This document shows positions 38,574-48,107 of a DNA stretch of 64,000 nt, in pieces. Position 1 is the first letter of the stretch, and every line of letters starts with the position of its first letter. The translations under genes and the position numbers were made by a program. Below the pieces are notes generated by a model. That model did not search any database, was not told the origin of the DNA, and worked only from the letters and a program-made list of their open reading frames with translations. Origin of the DNA: Gemmatimonadota bacterium (GTDB lineage: Bacteria; Gemmatimonadota; Gemmatimonadetes; Gemmatimonadales; GWC2-71-9); the NCBI GenBank assembly GCA_040388535.1, contig JAZKBR010000002.1:1024838-1088837 (forward strand), read 5' to 3'.

Positions 38574-39020
38574 ATGACGATGGCGCGTGCCCTGATTCGC
38601 CTCACCCTCGCGAGGAGTGCGCCGGCACTCCTCACGCACCACTGTCCCGATGCCGCCCTGGTCCTGACCCCCTTCGGCCGCTGGCTCCGCAATCAGCTGC
38701 ACGTCAGCGTGAGCCACTGTCATGGCATCGTGATGGAGCGGCTGCTGCTACGTCGCCTGGAGCTGGTGATCGTGCTGACCTGCCGAGCGACAGCCGCCCC
38801 GCTGGTGTCCACGCTTGCGTGCGTCGGCCGGGTGCGAGGAGAAGCCGCGCGCCGGGCTGTGGCGCACGGGTGGCTCACCAGCGCCGATCAGCTCTGGGGG
38901 TCGCAGGAACTCATTGTGGAGGTGCCCCCGCTGGTCAGGAGCGGACGCGTTTCAGCAGCACCAGCGCCAGCAGCAGGAAGAGTCCGTTCATTGACCACGC
39001 CGCGAGTTCGGGCGAGATGA
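38574..39020 (+). CDS. Unknown protein, possible real gene overlapping the lptG end
   Basis: The 148-codon frame has a strong G/C bias at third positions through about codon 122, as expected for genes in this genome. The product is basic and helical, with HWGTSAD-like HGWLTSADQLWGSQE and several Arg-rich stretches. I recognise no family. There is no convincing ribosome-binding site. The last ~85 bases lie opposite the 3' end of lptG, and the third-position bias fades there, so the true end may differ. It may be a small DNA/RNA-binding or membrane-associated protein, or a chance frame. Confidence 0.35.
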   Translation: MTMARALIRLTLARSAPALLTHHCPDAALVLTPFGRWLRNQLHVSVSHCHGIVMERLLLRRLELVIVLTCRATAAPLVSTLACVGRVRGEAARRAVAHGWLTSADQLWGSQELIVEVPPLVRSGRVSAAPAPAAGRVRSLTTPRVRAR

Positions 39021-40020
39021 TCTCCTTGCCACCGAGCGCTTTCATGATCTGGGTGCCGGTGAGGTACACCAGCGTCGTACCGAGGGCGAAGGCGAGACCG
39101 AGCGCGGCGCCAGCGCGCGGCGCGGTGAGGGCGAGTGGTGCACCAAACAGGGCGATCACGATGCAGGCGAACGGCACCGCGTACTTGAGTGGCAGGTCCA
39201 CCGCGAGCGATCCGGGCGGCTTCCCCGAGCGGCTCAATTGCGCCAGATAGCCGCGGAATTCCTCCATCGTCATTTCTTCGGCCTTCTTCTCCTGGTCGAG
39301 CAGCGTGTTCGGCGTCTCGACCAGCTGGCGATGCCGCAGGGAGAGATAGCGGAAGCTTGTGGTGGCCCCGGCACTGTCGGTCACCACGCTGACGCCGGAG
39401 AAGAAGCGCCAGCTCGCACGGGGGCCGAGCCAGAGAGCGCTGTCGGCGGCGATGGTCCAGTGCGGCTGGTGCGCCACGATCGGTCCTTCGATCAGGAGCC
39501 CGCCCTGCGCGCGAGCGGGTACCCGCGTCATCTCCTTGATGACCCAGGTCCACTTCGTGGGCGAGCTGTAACCGAACTGGAAGCGCTGCACATCCTTTGG
39601 TGAGGTCCGGTCGCCTTGCAGGGTGCGCTGGCGCGAGGTGCTCACGGCGGCGGCCTCCTGCAGCCCGAAGGTCAGTGGCACCGCAAGCAGGGCGAGCAGG
39701 AGCATCGGCGCGATCAGCCGGTAGAACGAAACGCCGCCCGCTTTCGCGGCCGTCAGTTCGCTGTGACGGCCCATCCCGTTGATGGTAAAGACGGTGGCGA
39801 AGAGCACGGCGGCCGGGAGGTACTGCGCCATCTGCCACGGGAAGAGATAGAGCTGGCCGAGGAAGATGTCGGGAATCGGGATGTGACGGTCGGTGAGCTT
39901 GCCGAAGCGGTCGGCGGTATTGATCAGCACCGAGATCGCCGGGATCCCGATCGCCGACAGCAGGAAGATGCCGGTCCACTGCCGCAGCACGTAGCGGTCG
40001 AGGATGCCGAAGACCTTCAC
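38935..40020 (-). CDS. lptG: LPS export permease LptG
   Basis: The 361-residue inner-membrane protein is of the YjgP/YjgQ type: three N-terminal and three C-terminal membrane helices around a periplasmic beta-jellyroll domain (about 130-270). The start MKVFGILDRYVLRQW and the C-terminal PFACIVIALFGAPLAL fit LptG. With LptF and the ATPase LptB it extracts lipopolysaccharide and feeds the LptA/LptD bridge. The GTG start overlaps the lptF stop (GTGA). No lptB, lptC or lptA is in the window. Confidence 0.9.
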   Translation of the reverse strand: MKVFGILDRYVLRQWTGIFLLSAIGIPAISVLINTADRFGKLTDRHIPIPDIFLGQLYLFPWQMAQYLPAAVLFATVFTINGMGRHSELTAAKAGGVSFYRLIAPMLLLALLAVPLTFGLQEAAAVSTSRQRTLQGDRTSPKDVQRFQFGYSSPTKWTWVIKEMTRVPARAQGGLLIEGPIVAHQPHWTIAADSALWLGPRASWRFFSGVSVVTDSAGATTSFRYLSLRHRQLVETPNTLLDQEKKAEEMTMEEFRGYLAQLSRSGKPPGSLAVDLPLKYAVPFACIVIALFGAPLALTAPRAGAALGLAFALGTTLVYLTGTQIMKALGGKEIISPELAAWSMNGLFLLLALVLLKRVRS

Positions 40021-41918
40021 GTCTTCCTCCGGAACGGCCAGCGGATGATCGAGAGCAATCCGTCGAGAATGCCGCCGGTGCGTGCCGTCCCCATCTCGCG
40101 ATTGGCCACGATCACGCCGACGAGGCCGAGGATGGTGAAGAGCACGACCGGGCCGTGCATCGCAGTGATCGGCGAGATGTACCCCTTGTTGGCGACATTC
40201 TCGCCGCCGATGAGCAGGACATAGAACGCCATGAAGATCACCAGCGACGCCCCGATGACCAGGCCGATTCCGCTCCGCGGGAAACGAAGCGCCAGTGCGA
40301 CGCCGAGCAGCACGAAACAGAAGGACGCCAGGGGAATCGAGAACTTCTTGTGATACTCGACTTCGTACTGACGAATCAGCGAGGTGGCACGACCGATCTG
40401 GATCGATCGGCTGCGCACTTCCTCGATTGTGCCCACGGGCCCCGGGATCTGCTGCACCACCGGCGGGACCAGGAAGTTGCGGTTGCCCGTGTCGGCGACC
40501 TGCGGTAGTAGCGCGCCGTTGCTCTGGGGGATCGGCGTGTTCATCGCGCGTTGCCGGAGCGCGAGCGCCAACGCGGAGTCGGCGCCCGGGGTGTGCTCAT
40601 TGGTTGGCACCACGGCGGAGAGAATCGCCTTCGCCGAGTCTGGTGAGAGCGGGGCATTGCTGTCGGCCGGAGGCGCGCCATCTCCCGGCTTCTTCACGGG
40701 CGGCGTGCCCGCGGCCGATGAATCCGCGGCCGCTTTTCCGGCGGCGACTTCCGGCGAAACTGCGGGAGCAGGCACCGGTGCTGGCGGCAGCTGTTGCGGC
40801 ATCGGTGGCACGACCGCGACGGTGCCGCGTGGCAAGCGTGCGCGCGTCGGCTCCGGATCGGTGGTCGGTTGCGGCTGCTTCAGTCGCTCATCGGGTGGCA
40901 TCGGTGTGGTATCACGCGGCTTGAGGTTAGGCACCATCAAGTGCCCGAACCATTCCTCGAAGTCGCGATACTTGCCACAGTGCGGCGGCAGCTTCGGTTG
41001 CGTCGGCGATGCCGGCGAGATGACCGGCGAGAGCCCGGCCAGATGGCGCAGGTCGCGTCGCGTGAAATACTCCTGCTGGCGCCGCTGCTCGGCGACTTCC
41101 CATTCCTGGTCGGCCACGCCATCGAGCAGTTGGCAGCCGCTCATCTCGCGGTCGCCTCGTTCGTTGGACCGGTCATCGCTGCGTTGCAGTTCGTTGGCGA
41201 CGCCGCGAATGGTGATCCGGTTCTCGAGGAAGCGGGTGACTTCGATCCGTCCCGGATCGGCACTCTTGATATCGAGTTGCTCGCCGCGTCGCAGGGTCAG
41301 CAGCAGGTCGGTGCCGTTGGGCGATTCCGCCATCCGGCCGCTATCGGCGTGGAGAACCTTGCGCCCCTCATAGGAGGAGAGGTCGTAGATCGTCACGCCG
41401 GTCATCCGGCCGGTGCTGCCATCGATGGTGGCGGCCCGCAGGATATATGAGGTATTGCCGAGCGGGTTGAGCAGCGCCGGCCGCAGTGCCAGCGTCGGGG
41501 TCTTGTTCATCACGTCGATCTTGAGCGCCCGGAAGCGGATGTTGCTGCGCGGGACGACCTGATCGAAGAGGATGAAGTTCACCAGCGCCACGCCGACGGC
41601 GGCGACGAGTGCCGGCCGGACCATCCGCCAGACCGAGATGCCGTTGGCGTACATCGCGACCATTTCCTGGTCGGCGGCGAGCTGGCTGTAGCCGTACAGG
41701 GTACTGACCAGGACGGCCATCGGGATGGTCAGGGTCAGCAGGGCCGGCAGGGCCAGGATGACCGCCTCCAGCATCACATCAAAGGGGAGTCCCTTCCCGC
41801 CGAACTGGTTGATCAGCTCGCTGATCTGATTCAGGAGCAGCAGTCCCGTCAGCGCCACAATCCCCCAGAGAAAGGGGGCGGCAAGCGCGCGTACGATGTG
41901 ACGGGTGATCAGGCGCAT
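40017..41918 (-). CDS. lptF: LPS export permease LptF with a long Pro-rich insert
   Basis: The 633-residue protein is about 270 residues longer than ordinary LptF. The N-terminal membrane part (MRLITRHIVRALAAPFLWG) and the C-terminal helices (from about 519) are normal. The periplasmic domain is present from about 105 to 260. Between about 270 and 485 there is an extra segment, rich in Pro, Ala and Gln (for example VVPPMPQQLPPAPVPAPAVS), with charged flanks. It could be a flexible extension reaching toward the outer membrane. The ATG at 41918 is chosen by homology; an upstream frame extension into the sprA side is noise. It is coupled to lptG. Confidence 0.88.
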   Translation of the reverse strand: MRLITRHIVRALAAPFLWGIVALTGLLLLNQISELINQFGGKGLPFDVMLEAVILALPALLTLTIPMAVLVSTLYGYSQLAADQEMVAMYANGISVWRMVRPALVAAVGVALVNFILFDQVVPRSNIRFRALKIDVMNKTPTLALRPALLNPLGNTSYILRAATIDGSTGRMTGVTIYDLSSYEGRKVLHADSGRMAESPNGTDLLLTLRRGEQLDIKSADPGRIEVTRFLENRITIRGVANELQRSDDRSNERGDREMSGCQLLDGVADQEWEVAEQRRQQEYFTRRDLRHLAGLSPVISPASPTQPKLPPHCGKYRDFEEWFGHLMVPNLKPRDTTPMPPDERLKQPQPTTDPEPTRARLPRGTVAVVPPMPQQLPPAPVPAPAVSPEVAAGKAAADSSAAGTPPVKKPGDGAPPADSNAPLSPDSAKAILSAVVPTNEHTPGADSALALALRQRAMNTPIPQSNGALLPQVADTGNRNFLVPPVVQQIPGPVGTIEEVRSRSIQIGRATSLIRQYEVEYHKKFSIPLASFCFVLLGVALALRFPRSGIGLVIGASLVIFMAFYVLLIGGENVANKGYISPITAMHGPVVLFTILGLVGVIVANREMGTARTGGILDGLLSIIRWPFRRKT

Positions 41919-42011
41919 GGCGGGGGGATGGCCGTCCGGTTGTGGTGCCCCACGTGAGGGGCGTAGGTTACTGTCGTCCGGTCTCCAAGCTAATCCCCCG
42001 ACTCCCCATCC

Positions 42012-45000
42012 GTGGCGCCACTCGCCCTCTTTCTCCTTCTCGCCAGCCTTCTCGCACCATGGTCCGCCGGGGCCCAGCTTCCCGCGGATACCATTCGTGC
42101 CAGAATGGGCGTTCACGGCACTCTCCCCGGCGCGCTGCCGACGGTGGGGGAGCCGGCGGTCCTGCGCGCACCCTGGCTCTTTCCGGCCGGGCGTTCCGTG
42201 GCGGGTCGGGTCGCACGTTTCGATACCGCCACCACGGCGGCCGTCGAGGCCCAGCGTCTTGCGGCGGCCCATCAGCGTCTGTTGATGGCGCTGTACCGTG
42301 GCCGCGGGTTCGGAGCGAGCCCGCGTGCCGACGGTGGCATCGCTGCCGAGGCGGCCCCTCGCGGCCTTTTCGGGCTCAACCGCAACGTTGCCGACCTGCA
42401 GTTTGATGGGGCGTTGCAACTCACCATCGGGACCGACCGTTTCAAGAACCTGCGCTGCACACCCTCGCAGCTGCAGGATCCCAATTCGGGGTGTCGCCCG
42501 AAGTTCAAGCCGCCGCGCATCGACAACCAGTTACGCTTCCAGGCGAGTGGACTGATCTCGCAGCGGCTCCGGGTCGACATCGATCTCGACAACACGCGCG
42601 AGTTCAATAACGCCAATAACATCCGCGTCTCGTACACCGGTCTCGAGGACGAGGTGCTGAAGCGGATCGATGTCGGCACGGTGCAGTTCCGGCCGCCGCT
42701 CTCCCGCTTCCTGACCGCCGGCATCCCGACCAACAACTTCGGCATCAACACCACGGTGGAACTCGGTCCGGTCGAGGTGCAGGCGCTCGCGGCCACGCAG
42801 TCGGGGAGCCAGGTCGGAACCAGGACCTATACCATCGGGTCGGAGACGACCGAGCCGCAGGACCGCGAAGTCGCCGACCTCAATTTCGAGGCGCGGCGCT
42901 TCTTCTGGGCCGTCGATCCGCGCACCCTCCCGGGCTACCCCGCGATCGATGCCCTTTCACTGCAGGGGCTGACGCTCGCGCCGTCGCTCAAGCCGACTGA
43001 AGTGCGGATCTACAAGTACCGCTCGGTCGCGGCCGGCGGGACCGGGGCCAACCCGAACCTTGACGGCATCACCGCGCTCGGCCTCAATCAGAGTGGCACC
43101 ACCATCGAGAAAATCGGCCCCCTCCGCTGGCAGCTGCTCCAGCAGGGACGCGACTACTGGCTCGATCCGTCGGGGCTCTGGTTCGTGCTCACGGCCAAGC
43201 TCGATCCGAATGACCTACTCGCGGTGAGCTATACCACTGCGGATGGTGGCCGCGTCGGGACCTTCCCCGCGACCGACGATCCGACGCGCAGCGATACCCT
43301 GCGCCTGATCCTGCAGCCCAATCGCGGCCCCGACGCTGGCTCGTTTGCGCACTCGATGCGCAATGTCTATCGCGTCACAGGGAGTGATCTCCAGGCGGGC
43401 TCGCTCGCCGTTGCGATCACGCTGAATCGCTCGGAGCTGCCGCCCGACGGGGTCGGCACCTGGCTCTCGCGCTTCGGCCTCGCGCTGCCCAACGACGCCA
43501 AGTTCTTCGACACCGACAATCGCCTCTTTCCGCGAAGCCGCGATCCCGGTGCGACGGCAACGATCCTCGATCATTTCATCTTCTTTCCGTCCCAGCAGCC
43601 GTTTGCCGACGCGGCGCGGATACCGGACCCGCAGTTCCGGAACGATTCGCTCTATCGCACACCGGAATACCTGCTCTTCGAGCAGGGGCCGCCGGCGAAA
43701 TATCAGATCCGCCTCCAGTACGCGGCGCGGGGCGGCGGCGACAAGGGATCGATCAACCTCAACGCAATCCAGATTCGCGAAGGGACCGAACAGCTCACCG
43801 TTGACGGGCTCCGGCTCACCCGGGGTGTCGACTATTCCATCAGCTACGGCACCGGAATGGTCACCTTCCTCGAGCCGGAACGTCTCTTCAGTCGCGGCAC
43901 GTCCACCGTGACCGCGAGCTTCGAGCAGCAGGGTTTCTTCGCAATCGCACCGACATCGATTTTCGGCCTCACCGCGCGCTACCGCGTCGGCTCCATCGGC
44001 AGCGTGAACCTGGTCGGCCTCTATCAGTCGGAAGCCACAGCCTTCACCCGACCTCAGCTCGGATTCGAGCCCACGGCCTCGCTGCTCGCAGGCGTGACCG
44101 GACAATTCAATTTCCGTCTCCCGGCGGTCTCGCGCTTCCTCAAGGGGCTCGCGCGCGGCGGCGTGGTGGCGCCGTCGTCACTCGAGCTCAATGCCGAACT
44201 CGCGTTCTCGCGACCGGATGCGAATCGCTCGGGTGAGGCCTACCTCGAAGAATTCGAGAACGATGCCGGGATTCCGATCCGGCTCGGTGAAGGGAACTGG
44301 CAGATCTCCTCGATGCCGCAATCGTCGGCGGGCGTGGAAGCCCTCGGCTTTCCGAGCGGGTTCGACTCGACCAGCGCCGTCCAGCTCAGCTGGCAGAACC
44401 TGGTGCCGAATCGTCTCGGCCTCGCCAACGAGATCACGGCCGAGGCCATCGACCCGAACATTCAGATCGTCGGCGGCAAGAGCACCAGCCCCGAGACCGT
44501 CGCCTACATCACCTTCCACGCCGATACCGCTGGCGGCATCGTCGCGCGCAACAACCACTCGCACTGGAGCCTGCCACCGCGACCGTTCCAGCCACGCTGG
44601 CGCTCGGTGGTGACGCCGCTCTCGCTCACCGGTGTCGACCTCACCCGCAACGAGTTCCTCGAGTTCTGGGTCTTCGAAGGCGAAGACGACAAGCCGGTCG
44701 AATCCTCGGAAATGCGCTTCATGCTCGACCTCGGCAGTGTCAGCGAGGACGCGCTGGCGATTGCGCCGACGGCCTTCACGGTGAGTGGGACTGATACGAC
44801 CTGGACCGGGCGGCAGTATGTCGGCGCGGGCCGACTCGACACCGAACGCAATGCCACGGGCACCTATTCCGCCGTCACTGATGATGTCGGGATTCTCGGC
44901 GACCGTCCCGACCAGGTCACCGGACCGCTGGGCCCGGTGCTTCGGCCAGCGCTCTGTCGGCGCACGGTCACCGCGTCCGTCGAGATCTTCCCCTGGGGCG

Positions 45001-48000
45001 ATCTCTCGGCCCGCTGCTCCAATGGCAACGGCCTGCTCGATACCGAAGATCTCGATGCCGACCTGCTCCTCAACGCGCGCGGCCCCGATGAGGATGCCTT
45101 CCGCTACATCATCGATCTGCGCGATCCCAAGTACTTCGTCCGCACCGGCGTGGTCTCCACCGACAACGCAACCGGGCGGAAGGCCGCGTGGAAGCTCTAC
45201 CGCGTGCCGCTGCGTCAGTGGGATCGTCAGGTTGGCCAGCCCAACATGCGGCTGATCAAGCACCTCCGCTTCACCTTCCTGACGCCGCCCGACAAGGGGG
45301 GCTCCGACCCGGTGGTGCGCTTCGCTCTGGCGCGCATGCGGCTCATTGGCGCGCCCTGGGTCCGCCGGGCCGAGACGCCGATCGCAGGGATCAGCGGGTC
45401 GACCGGAGTCAGCCACGGTGATGTGTCGGTGTCGGCGATCACCACCGAGAACCTCGAACTCGGCTACGTCCCGCCACCGGGCGTGGTGAGCGCGACGAAG
45501 GACGTGGCGGGAGGCCAGTCGAGCCTCGGCCAGCAGATCAACGAAAAGGCCCTCCGTGTGGTTGCCAAGGATCTCCGCTCGGGCGAGCGGGCTGAGGCGT
45601 ACTTTCGTTTCCTCGGCGACGCGCGCAATCTCCTGTCATATCGCGAGCTGCGGCTCTGGCTGCGCGGTCGTGGCACCGGCTGGGAAGACGGCACGCTGCG
45701 AGGCTACATCAAGGTCGGCGCCGACGCACGCAACTTCTACTGGTTCGACGCGAGTGCATTGACCACGACCTGGGAGCCCGAGGTCGTCGTCAATCTCGAC
45801 ACCTGGCGCAAGCTGCGTGCGCAGGTTCAGGAGCGCTATCTCCGTGGCGAAGCACCGAGTGGATCGCTTGAATGCGGCGGCGATCCCGAGGCGTACGTGG
45901 CGTGCGAAGGGCCGTACATCGTGCACCTGCGCGATCCGGGGATCAGCGAACCGAACCTCGCGAAGGTGCAGGAGATTGCCACGGGCATCTATCACAAGGC
46001 CGGTGGCGCAGCGCCAGCGGCAGCCGAGCTCTGGATTGATGACATCCGGCTCGCGACTCCCATCACCGAGGTCGGTCGTGCTGCGGCCATCAACGCGCGG
46101 CTCCTGGCCACGGACCTCGGCGATGTCACCCTGGACTATGTCTATCAGGACGGCCAGTTCCGGCAGATTTCGGCGGCCCCCTCCTATCGCACGACCGGCA
46201 CCTTGCAGGCGAGTACGAACCTCCGACTCGATCGCTTTCTGCCGGCGTCCTTCGGCCTCGCGATGCCGTTGTCGCTCGGCTACAACGCCAGCAGCACCGA
46301 TCCCGAGCTGATTGCCGGTTCGGATTTACGGGCCGCCGAGCTGGTCGATCTGCGACGCCCGCGGAGCAACAACTCCTCGTTCTCGCTCAACGTGCGCCGC
46401 GTCGTGAACACCGGAAGCTTCCTGACTCGACTGCTGCTGAATCCGCTCTCGTTCAGCGCCAACTTCGCCGGCGCCGACGCAACCACCGAATTGAGCGACG
46501 CGAATTCCTCGTTGTTCAACTATTCGCTGGGATGGTCGGTCGCCGGGGGGCGGCGAACGCGTTCACTCGGATTCGGGCGACTGGCGCGAGGGCTGCCGCG
46601 CTGGCTCCGCGAGAGTGAGAGTGGTCGGGCGCTGGGTCGCGCGAACATTGCGCTGCTGCCGACGGCACTGCGACTCAACACGACGCTCTCGCGCACCCAG
46701 GGTGACTACACCTCCTTCCTGGTGCCGATCCATCGCGCCTCCGACACGCTGCTGAAGCCGGTGACCTCGTTGCAGTATCTCTGGCGCAACAATGTCGGTA
46801 CCAGCTGGCAGCCACTGCAGATGATCACCCTGAACGCCGACTGGACCAGCACGCGCGATCTCCGGAACTATCCCGATTCCACCTCCATCGGGCGGCTCGC
46901 CGGCGCCTCGCGCCGCCAGTTTCTCGGCACGGATGTCGGTGTCGAGCGCGATCGCAACGTGACCTCGGGGATCTCGCTCAATCCGACACTCGCGTCATGG
47001 CTGCGCCCGCGCATCTCGACCGTGTCGTCGTTCATCCTCTCGCGGTCTCTCACGAGCCGCAATCCGGTGCGAACCGATGGGGATACTCTCGGGGAATACA
47101 TTCTTCCCCAGACGCTCAACAACGCCCGCATCTCCGAGATCGGCGCCACCATCGATCCCGCTCTGCTGCTGCGACGCGTGCTCGGCGATTCCAGCAAGAC
47201 CGCCAGGTATTTCTCCCGCCTCCGACAGCTCGATGTCACCCGCCGCCGGACCCGGCAGTCCACCTTCGACCTGGCCGCCTTCGATCCGTCGATCGGCTAC
47301 CAGCTCGGCACCGGTAGCTTCGATTCCTTCCTCCATCAGGGGAGTGATGTCGCGCTCGGGGCGAGTCAGTACTGGGAGACATCCTTCACCGCTGGACTCG
47401 AGTTGCCGCTCGGCCTGTCGGTGACCTCGACCTATCAGGAAAACCACAACGATCGCTACCAGCGTGCCACCGCCGATGCCTTCATGGTGACCGAGACCCG
47501 CTCCCGTGACTGGCCGTACGGCTCGGTGAGTTGGAGCAGAGTCTTCCGTGGTGGCCCCCTCTCCCTGGTCACCCTGTCGTCGTCGCTGCGCCAGCGGCAG
47601 AGTTCAACCCGGACCCCGCGGCTCGACGGTGCCTCAGCGGCAACGAGCGCAACCACCAACCGGACGTTCGGCCCCGAGGTGCGTCTCACCTTTCGCAACG
47701 GCATCAGCCTGCTGACCCGTGCGACTATGGACCGCTCCGAGAGCCGCGACAACGGCTCGCTCCGGCGCGGGAATATCGATAACCTGAGCGGCGAGCTATT
47801 CTGGAGCGTCCGGCTGCCGCGCGCCCTGTCGGAACTCCGTAAGCCGCTGCGGACGCAGCTGTATGCCACCATCCGACGCAGCAATGACTGTCTGCTGCGC
47901 GCCGAGGGCCAGGAGTGCGAAACGGTTTCGGATATCCGCGGGCACGACATTCACGGCTCCCTGACGACCGACGTCTTCGGGCGGGTGACAGGCGGGCTCG

Positions 48001-48107
48001 TCTTCGGTTGGGTAGTGAATGACTTGCGATATCTCGATCGGAAGACGTCGACGATTTCGGCCGCCCTCAACTTCAATATTCCGCTCACCATGCCGGGGAA
48101 TCGCTGA
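42012..48107 (+). CDS. sprA: SprA-like T9SS outer-membrane translocon protein
   Basis: The 2031-residue protein has a signal peptide (LAPWSAGAQ) and SprA-like segments. Examples are an early NTREFNNANNIRVSYTGLED block, like the SprA region before the barrel, and FGINTTVELGPVEV soon after. SprA forms the 36-strand outer-membrane channel of the T9SS in Bacteroidota. The start is GTG at 42012, with no obvious ribosome-binding site. It is divergent from lptF/lptG by 93 bases. The length is a little under the Bacteroidota type (~2300-2500). The M28 gene overlaps its stop (TGATG). Confidence 0.85.
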   Translation: MAPLALFLLLASLLAPWSAGAQLPADTIRARMGVHGTLPGALPTVGEPAVLRAPWLFPAGRSVAGRVARFDTATTAAVEAQRLAAAHQRLLMALYRGRGFGASPRADGGIAAEAAPRGLFGLNRNVADLQFDGALQLTIGTDRFKNLRCTPSQLQDPNSGCRPKFKPPRIDNQLRFQASGLISQRLRVDIDLDNTREFNNANNIRVSYTGLEDEVLKRIDVGTVQFRPPLSRFLTAGIPTNNFGINTTVELGPVEVQALAATQSGSQVGTRTYTIGSETTEPQDREVADLNFEARRFFWAVDPRTLPGYPAIDALSLQGLTLAPSLKPTEVRIYKYRSVAAGGTGANPNLDGITALGLNQSGTTIEKIGPLRWQLLQQGRDYWLDPSGLWFVLTAKLDPNDLLAVSYTTADGGRVGTFPATDDPTRSDTLRLILQPNRGPDAGSFAHSMRNVYRVTGSDLQAGSLAVAITLNRSELPPDGVGTWLSRFGLALPNDAKFFDTDNRLFPRSRDPGATATILDHFIFFPSQQPFADAARIPDPQFRNDSLYRTPEYLLFEQGPPAKYQIRLQYAARGGGDKGSINLNAIQIREGTEQLTVDGLRLTRGVDYSISYGTGMVTFLEPERLFSRGTSTVTASFEQQGFFAIAPTSIFGLTARYRVGSIGSVNLVGLYQSEATAFTRPQLGFEPTASLLAGVTGQFNFRLPAVSRFLKGLARGGVVAPSSLELNAELAFSRPDANRSGEAYLEEFENDAGIPIRLGEGNWQISSMPQSSAGVEALGFPSGFDSTSAVQLSWQNLVPNRLGLANEITAEAIDPNIQIVGGKSTSPETVAYITFHADTAGGIVARNNHSHWSLPPRPFQPRWRSVVTPLSLTGVDLTRNEFLEFWVFEGEDDKPVESSEMRFMLDLGSVSEDALAIAPTAFTVSGTDTTWTGRQYVGAGRLDTERNATGTYSAVTDDVGILGDRPDQVTGPLGPVLRPALCRRTVTASVEIFPWGDLSARCSNGNGLLDTEDLDADLLLNARGPDEDAFRYIIDLRDPKYFVRTGVVSTDNATGRKAAWKLYRVPLRQWDRQVGQPNMRLIKHLRFTFLTPPDKGGSDPVVRFALARMRLIGAPWVRRAETPIAGISGSTGVSHGDVSVSAITTENLELGYVPPPGVVSATKDVAGGQSSLGQQINEKALRVVAKDLRSGERAEAYFRFLGDARNLLSYRELRLWLRGRGTGWEDGTLRGYIKVGADARNFYWFDASALTTTWEPEVVVNLDTWRKLRAQVQERYLRGEAPSGSLECGGDPEAYVACEGPYIVHLRDPGISEPNLAKVQEIATGIYHKAGGAAPAAAELWIDDIRLATPITEVGRAAAINARLLATDLGDVTLDYVYQDGQFRQISAAPSYRTTGTLQASTNLRLDRFLPASFGLAMPLSLGYNASSTDPELIAGSDLRAAELVDLRRPRSNNSSFSLNVRRVVNTGSFLTRLLLNPLSFSANFAGADATTELSDANSSLFNYSLGWSVAGGRRTRSLGFGRLARGLPRWLRESESGRALGRANIALLPTALRLNTTLSRTQGDYTSFLVPIHRASDTLLKPVTSLQYLWRNNVGTSWQPLQMITLNADWTSTRDLRNYPDSTSIGRLAGASRRQFLGTDVGVERDRNVTSGISLNPTLASWLRPRISTVSSFILSRSLTSRNPVRTDGDTLGEYILPQTLNNARISEIGATIDPALLLRRVLGDSSKTARYFSRLRQLDVTRRRTRQSTFDLAAFDPSIGYQLGTGSFDSFLHQGSDVALGASQYWETSFTAGLELPLGLSVTSTYQENHNDRYQRATADAFMVTETRSRDWPYGSVSWSRVFRGGPLSLVTLSSSLRQRQSSTRTPRLDGASAATSATTNRTFGPEVRLTFRNGISLLTRATMDRSESRDNGSLRRGNIDNLSGELFWSVRLPRALSELRKPLRTQLYATIRRSNDCLLRAEGQECETVSDIRGHDIHGSLTTDVFGRVTGGLVFGWVVNDLRYLDRKTSTISAALNFNIPLTMPGNR

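Follow-up and report, generated by a model that had tools for sequence, protein, structure and literature searches.

The stretch of DNA analysed here (64,000 nucleotides of a Gemmatimonadota contig, hereafter the window) carries lptF on the minus strand (40017..41918; start codon ATG at 41918, stop at 40017-40019), which encodes a 633-residue permease of the LptF/LptG family. LptF is a membrane protein that takes part in extracting lipopolysaccharide from the inner membrane. The gene adjoins lptG (38935..40020, minus strand), whose product of normal length (361 aa) matches Pfam PF03739 over profile positions 1-353 with 173.9 bits. In the window LptF, the PF03739 match (255.9 bits; cut-off 27.9) is split in two stretches around an insert, the best covering residues 6-282 (profile positions 1-268) and the second, from the genome search, covering profile positions 258-349. 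The NCBIfam equivalog for LptF, TIGR04407, gave 181.9 bits, below its curated cut-off of 230, compared with 131.8 bits for the LptG model TIGR04408, and the neighbouring lptG gave 138.4 bits as LptG versus 103.3 as LptF. Since the equivalog cut-off was not reached, the name LptF is based on relative score and on the gene pair. A match to AbiEi_4 at residues 277-298 (E 0.081; 13.5 of 25 bits) was taken as chance. An AlphaFold2 model of the single chain, built from an alignment of 74 rows (mean pLDDT 81.1), displayed three helices, a periplasmic jellyroll and three further helices, and its top structural matches were LptF/LptG chains (5x5y_F, Z 23.7, 8.3 Å rmsd, 348 residues aligned; 6mjp_G, Z 25.7, 12.0 Å, 339 aligned). 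The LptFs of solved LptB2FGC complexes from E. coli, Klebsiella, Vibrio, Acinetobacter and Enterobacter share PF03739, the TM1-3/jellyroll/TM4-6 order and an adjacent lptG, whereas the matched PDB LptF chains have 362-375 residues.

The extra residues lie between the jellyroll and TM4, from an RE motif (residues 257-258) to a VExxKK motif (520-525), and amount to 261-263 depending on the cut points. The first-pass annotation had described a Pro/Ala-rich insertion at 40440-41110, which corresponds to LptF residues 270-493. Profile matches, the AlphaFold2 model and the relatives show that an in-frame periplasmic enlargement past the jellyroll, with the flanking helices retained, is real. Proline and alanine make up 36% of residues 345-495 and 13% of the protein outside 257-517; the Pro/Ala clusters are thus present as described, but the long glutamine run that had been included with them is absent (9 Gln in 151 residues). 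The insert contains just three direct repeats, of two copies each and 13-23 nt long, and repeat expansion was dropped as its origin because these repeats are so short and few.

A search with the window LptF matched 148 of 150 Gemmatimonadota genomes, the window's own among them, and full-length LptF was read for 91 of the 148, again including its own. An alignment of LptF across Gemmatimonadota, proposed in the first-pass annotation, showed the enlargement in all 91 (444-664 aa), and the insertion is therefore not confined to one strain. A frameshift or assembly error was also ruled out, since 90 other full-length LptFs are enlarged too, GC3 is coding-like throughout the insert (0.65-0.93) and there is no in-frame stop. 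The spacing from REM to YxVExxKK ranged from 83 to 279 residues among the 91 LptFs (median 137), that of the window (261) being the second longest. These counts leave out 16 of 107 rows, namely L001-L003, which are copies of the window's gene, and L008, L022, L024, L094, L095, L097, L099, L102-L104, L106, L108 and L109, which were truncated at the end of a contig or locus, fragmentary, uncertain in frame, LptG or duplicate views of a gene already included; L100, L107, L110 and L111 have no row among the 107. L022 (404 aa) seems broken, and the frame of L024 is uncertain. The two genomes of the 150 with no match to the window LptF, G039 and G094, are 99% and 91% complete; PF03739 found a sub-cut-off match in G039 and none in G094. 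The lack of an LptF/LptG over the family cut-off in these two genomes would reflect either an assembly gap or real loss, and G039 nevertheless carries LptC.

In the predicted structure, the extra residues form an arm whose parts, all encoded on the minus strand, follow the periplasmic beta-jellyroll strands (residues 158-237; 41208..41447; block pLDDT 91-97). The RE motif at the arm base (41145..41150) is invariant in the 74-row alignment and conserved at 98-100% in 57 LptFs of the window's order and at 97-100% in the other 34. Arm helix 1 (residues 261-293; 41040..41138; block pLDDT 94-97), with Cys262 (41133-41135) at its start, is followed by a return segment without regular secondary structure (residues 294-313; 40980..41039; block pLDDT 90-94) and by a short helix that begins at Cys314 (residues 314-328; 40935..40979). 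A Pro/Ala-rich linker (residues about 330-494; 40437..40931) is mostly disordered as judged from pLDDT, composition and length range, with pLDDT below 50 at residues 349-351, 356-447 and 464-481, inside a low-confidence stretch of residues about 331-490. The returning arm helix (residues 495-545; 40284..40436), which carries VExxKK at 40344-40361, is modelled as one helix with TM4 (block pLDDT 92-98 over residues 501-550); E521, K524 and K525 are invariant in the 74-row alignment. A LptF of Zixibacteriota, modelled as a single chain on 41 rows (mean pLDDT 90.1), displayed the bare arm: residues 258-285 are helical, a mini-helix (294-301) lies in the turn, and the second helix (303-353) continues through TM4. 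From the models we infer that the two helices of the arm are packed together. The predictions separate three layers: a hairpin common to both models, a return segment with two cysteines specific to the window's order, and the disordered Pro/Ala-rich linker. The earlier description of the insertion as one Pro/Ala-rich piece accordingly captured the Pro/Ala part and had not separated out the helical hairpin common to the relatives compared.

Since the second arm helix is in one piece with TM4, the arm might be a mechanical strut that passes TM4 movement to the LptF jellyroll in the ATP cycle, without binding LptC. The continuity of this helix is predicted with high confidence in both the window and Zixibacteriota, RE and VExxKK at the arm base are nearly invariant, and rigid-body jellyroll motion is reported for P. 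aeruginosa structures in the available part of PMC12738788. On the other hand, one would expect both permeases to carry a general strut, and the window's LptG, of the same family, has no arm; we regard this role as rather unlikely.

The two cysteines distinguish the window's order from the rest of the phylum. Cys262 and Cys314 were both present in 57 of 57 LptFs of this order (families f1, f2 and f3) and neither was present in the other 34 of 34. In a quick core tree from which the insert was left out, the pair maps to one change (SH-aLRT 96%), indicating a single origin with strict retention rather than repeated covariation. Across the columns occupied by the window, they are the sole fully invariant positions from RE to VE in the 57 proteins, in which 45-69 residues separate them. 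Judging from this conservation pattern, a Cys262-Cys314 disulfide probably clamps the return segment. Past Cys314 (residues 314-340), many relatives from the window's order have a short amphipathic segment with a P..A.AQ-like end, and the column of residue 335 holds Ala in 89% of the 57.

The linker behaves differently. With its ends set at constant distances from Cys314 and VE, it measures 15-175 residues in the 57 relatives (161 in the window), with a similar composition (median P+A 39% among members longer than 15 residues), and three LptFs from the same genus (L005-L007) have connectors of 149-162 residues versus 261 in the window. Such variation in length points to flexibility and a weak constraint on length. 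It would also fit an arm that merely stabilises LptF, with the linker as near-neutral low-complexity growth. However, a long connector is retained in every full-length LptF read, and the full invariance of the two cysteines, shared by no other window-occupied column from RE to VE in the 57 proteins, indicates selection on at least this part, so that we consider this explanation unlikely.

To extend the comparison beyond Gemmatimonadota, genome contigs were scanned with a Glassbacteria-led alignment. The best 80 of 147 relatives, 444-546 aa long, include records of Zixibacteriota, Neomarinimicrobiota, Eisenbacteria and Cloacimonadota; 15 of the 80 proteins are identical to members of the first (Gemmatimonadota) set. 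For L146, the regular expression gave a spacing of 41, which probably reflects a spurious motif match and was set aside; six of the 80 loci have no such value. By alignment, the RE-to-VE connector has 103 residues in Glassbacteria, 74 in Zixibacteriota, 98 and 104 in Neomarinimicrobiota, 82 in Eisenbacteria and 74 in Cloacimonadota. Short connectors were observed in the LptFs of E. coli (17), Azospirillum (25) and Fusobacterium (24) and in the window's LptG (26), compared with 263 in the window LptF; outside the solved structures, the short form is represented by three LptFs of other phyla. The value for E. coli LptG, 55 residues, comes from a poorly aligned row. Of 30 genomes drawn from the phylum to which the Cloacimonadota locus belongs, all have one long family member (spanning 1191-1215 nt; in two pieces in one genome) and 29 also a short one (1050-1077 nt), which places the arm on a single permease there.

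Three Bacteroidales proteins from plasmid records have a connector of 106-109 residues at the matching place. It differs from that of the window in having neither the cysteines nor a Pro/Ala-rich linker, nor RE, with A or S in place of its E. In the absence of the RE motif, position is the sole basis on which the Bacteroidales arm is matched and a common origin argued. In the 632-residue permease of Bacteroides finegoldii (WP_007756989.1), which has the long connector in the same place as the window LptF, most of the remaining extra size is a long C-terminal extension. The Bacteroidales permeases L217, L218 and L221 (632-636 aa) extend well over 100 residues past the last membrane helices. The phyla with armed LptF belong to the FCB group. 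Taken together, the armed LptF of Gemmatimonadota and its relatives is a real and old feature.

The first-pass annotation had raised the idea that the insertion replaces or reinforces the LptC/LptA bridge as a tether, and had proposed a search for lptC. The gene was found in the window's own genome with a TIGR04409 match of 74.7 bits (cut-off 38), refuting a missing LptC, in one cluster with lptB (TIGR04406, 343.4 bits; cut-off 240). Between the two, an ORF of 460 aa (L122:6993-8375, minus strand) is a candidate for LptA by its position; neither Pfam nor NCBIfam models matched it within the limits applied. E. coli LptA has about 185 residues and is far shorter. The genome also encodes an LptD of the Bacteroides type (LptD_2, PF19838; E 6.8e-33, over the cut-off), a profile that among 14 control genomes matched in Bacteroides only, and PF04453, the E. 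coli-type LptD, had no match in the genome. A search of 61 genomes detected LptC in 54, with 41 hits among the 43 better assemblies; all 12 of the wider set had it as well. Because LptB, LptC, a candidate LptA and an LptD are present, a replacement of the bridge is not supported. The arm is periplasmic and long, and a loop 160 residues long, if extended, might in principle span a large distance in the periplasm; a linker of 15-175 residues, whose length is not conserved, nevertheless speaks against a measured tether, and we consider a tether very unlikely.

The neighbour upstream of lptF is sprA (ORF 42012-48107, plus strand; TIGR04189, E 1.3e-147), which encodes the outer-membrane translocon of the type IX secretion system (T9SS). 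The two genes diverge at window positions 41918-42120. Among Gemmatimonadota loci of the first set, 89 have 900 nt or more upstream, and 57 of these show the same head-to-head arrangement, a lower bound given the short flanks; both Eisenbacteria loci show it too. This recurrent pairing hints that LPS export and T9SS are linked, and the arm could be imagined to couple LPS extraction to T9SS through SprA. With the window's SprA as query, which diverged copies may escape, sprA was not matched next to lptF in any of the nine Neomarinimicrobiota loci with sufficient flank or in the Zixibacteriota and Cloacimonadota loci, even though these LptFs have long connectors. Gene order by itself, moreover, shows no contact, and such coupling by the arm appears highly improbable.

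The anchor of LptC offers another view of the arm. In 42 of 42 loci inspected by eye, a cysteine closes the N-terminal hydrophobic stretch of LptC, and a strict lipobox was found in 32 of the 42 compared with 63 of 2100 shuffles. The 32 comprise 27 of 30 from the window's order and 5 of 12 from the wider set, although in L206, one of the five, the match may be to the wrong Cys. Within the window's class, these anchors were examined for its order and for one further genome (L214). From its N-terminus, LptC looks like a lipoprotein without a TM helix. Arm and lipoprotein-like LptC occurred together in every genome where both were examined, so that the co-occurrence is without an independent contrast. 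Fusobacterium LptC was uninformative as a contrast, its match lying inside a long frame (909 residues open; 643-aa ORF), and no LptC match was found in the three Bacteroidales records, which come from a plasmid collection and are not whole genomes.

The TM helix of LptC in complexes of the E. coli type sits between LptG TM1 and LptF TM5 and contacts mostly LptF, according to the available sections of PMC6744409 and PMC9972910, with LptF TM5 given as its main packing partner in those of PMC6744409. The LptC jellyroll also touches LptF, as described in the parts accessible of PMC9972910 and PMC12738788. The window's system differs from the solved LptB2FGC complexes in its helical arm, Cys pair and predicted disordered linker, and in its LptC, whose anchor looks like a lipid and not a TM helix. 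LptC here resembles its ortholog in Borrelia burgdorferi, which is predicted to be an inner-membrane lipoprotein in the available text of PMC10353723; that text makes no mention of an arm on Borrelia LptF. Nor does such an arm appear in the portions available of PMC9972910, PMC6744409, PMC8871954, PMC12738788 and PMC10353723, and no arm of this kind was described among the matches listed from the open-access literature (titles and abstract openings).

With a confidence that falls somewhat short of even, we propose that the arm positions the lipoprotein-like LptC on LptF and that the Pro/Ala-rich linker is a length-tolerant flexible loop, based on the predicted anatomy and on co-occurrence in related lineages. 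In this reading, the window's LptF belongs to a lipopolysaccharide extractor of the LptB2FG type and has a form common to Gemmatimonadota and several neighbouring phyla. Its predicted arm is a periplasmic helical hairpin running from the jellyroll to TM4, the descending helix being in one piece with TM4, to which the window's order has added the folded return segment, with its probable disulfide clamp, and the disordered linker. Since LptC looks lipid-anchored and lacks the TM helix that packs on LptF TM5 in E. coli, the arm may help LptF to hold or orient LptC, bringing both jellyrolls into line. This positioning role is favoured because the arm is on the subunit that meets LptC, at the junction of jellyroll and TM4, with nearly invariant charged residues at its base. 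Its main rival is the transmission of TM4 movement to the jellyroll considered above.

A broader form of the LptC-positioning proposal, which we regard as doubtful, is a second extractor architecture across the FCB phyla, in which a lipoprotein LptC lost its TM helix and is held by the LptF arm, with the disulfide-clamped segment and the linker as additions of the window's order. The matched LptB2FG structures with a named organism all come from Pseudomonadota genera, and in the Pseudomonadota structures the LptC TM helix occupies the lateral gate. If whole phyla, including Bacteroidota, do use a lipoprotein LptC together with an armed LptF, the role of the LptC TM helix would not be universal, and the arm would be a lineage-specific handle on LPS transport.
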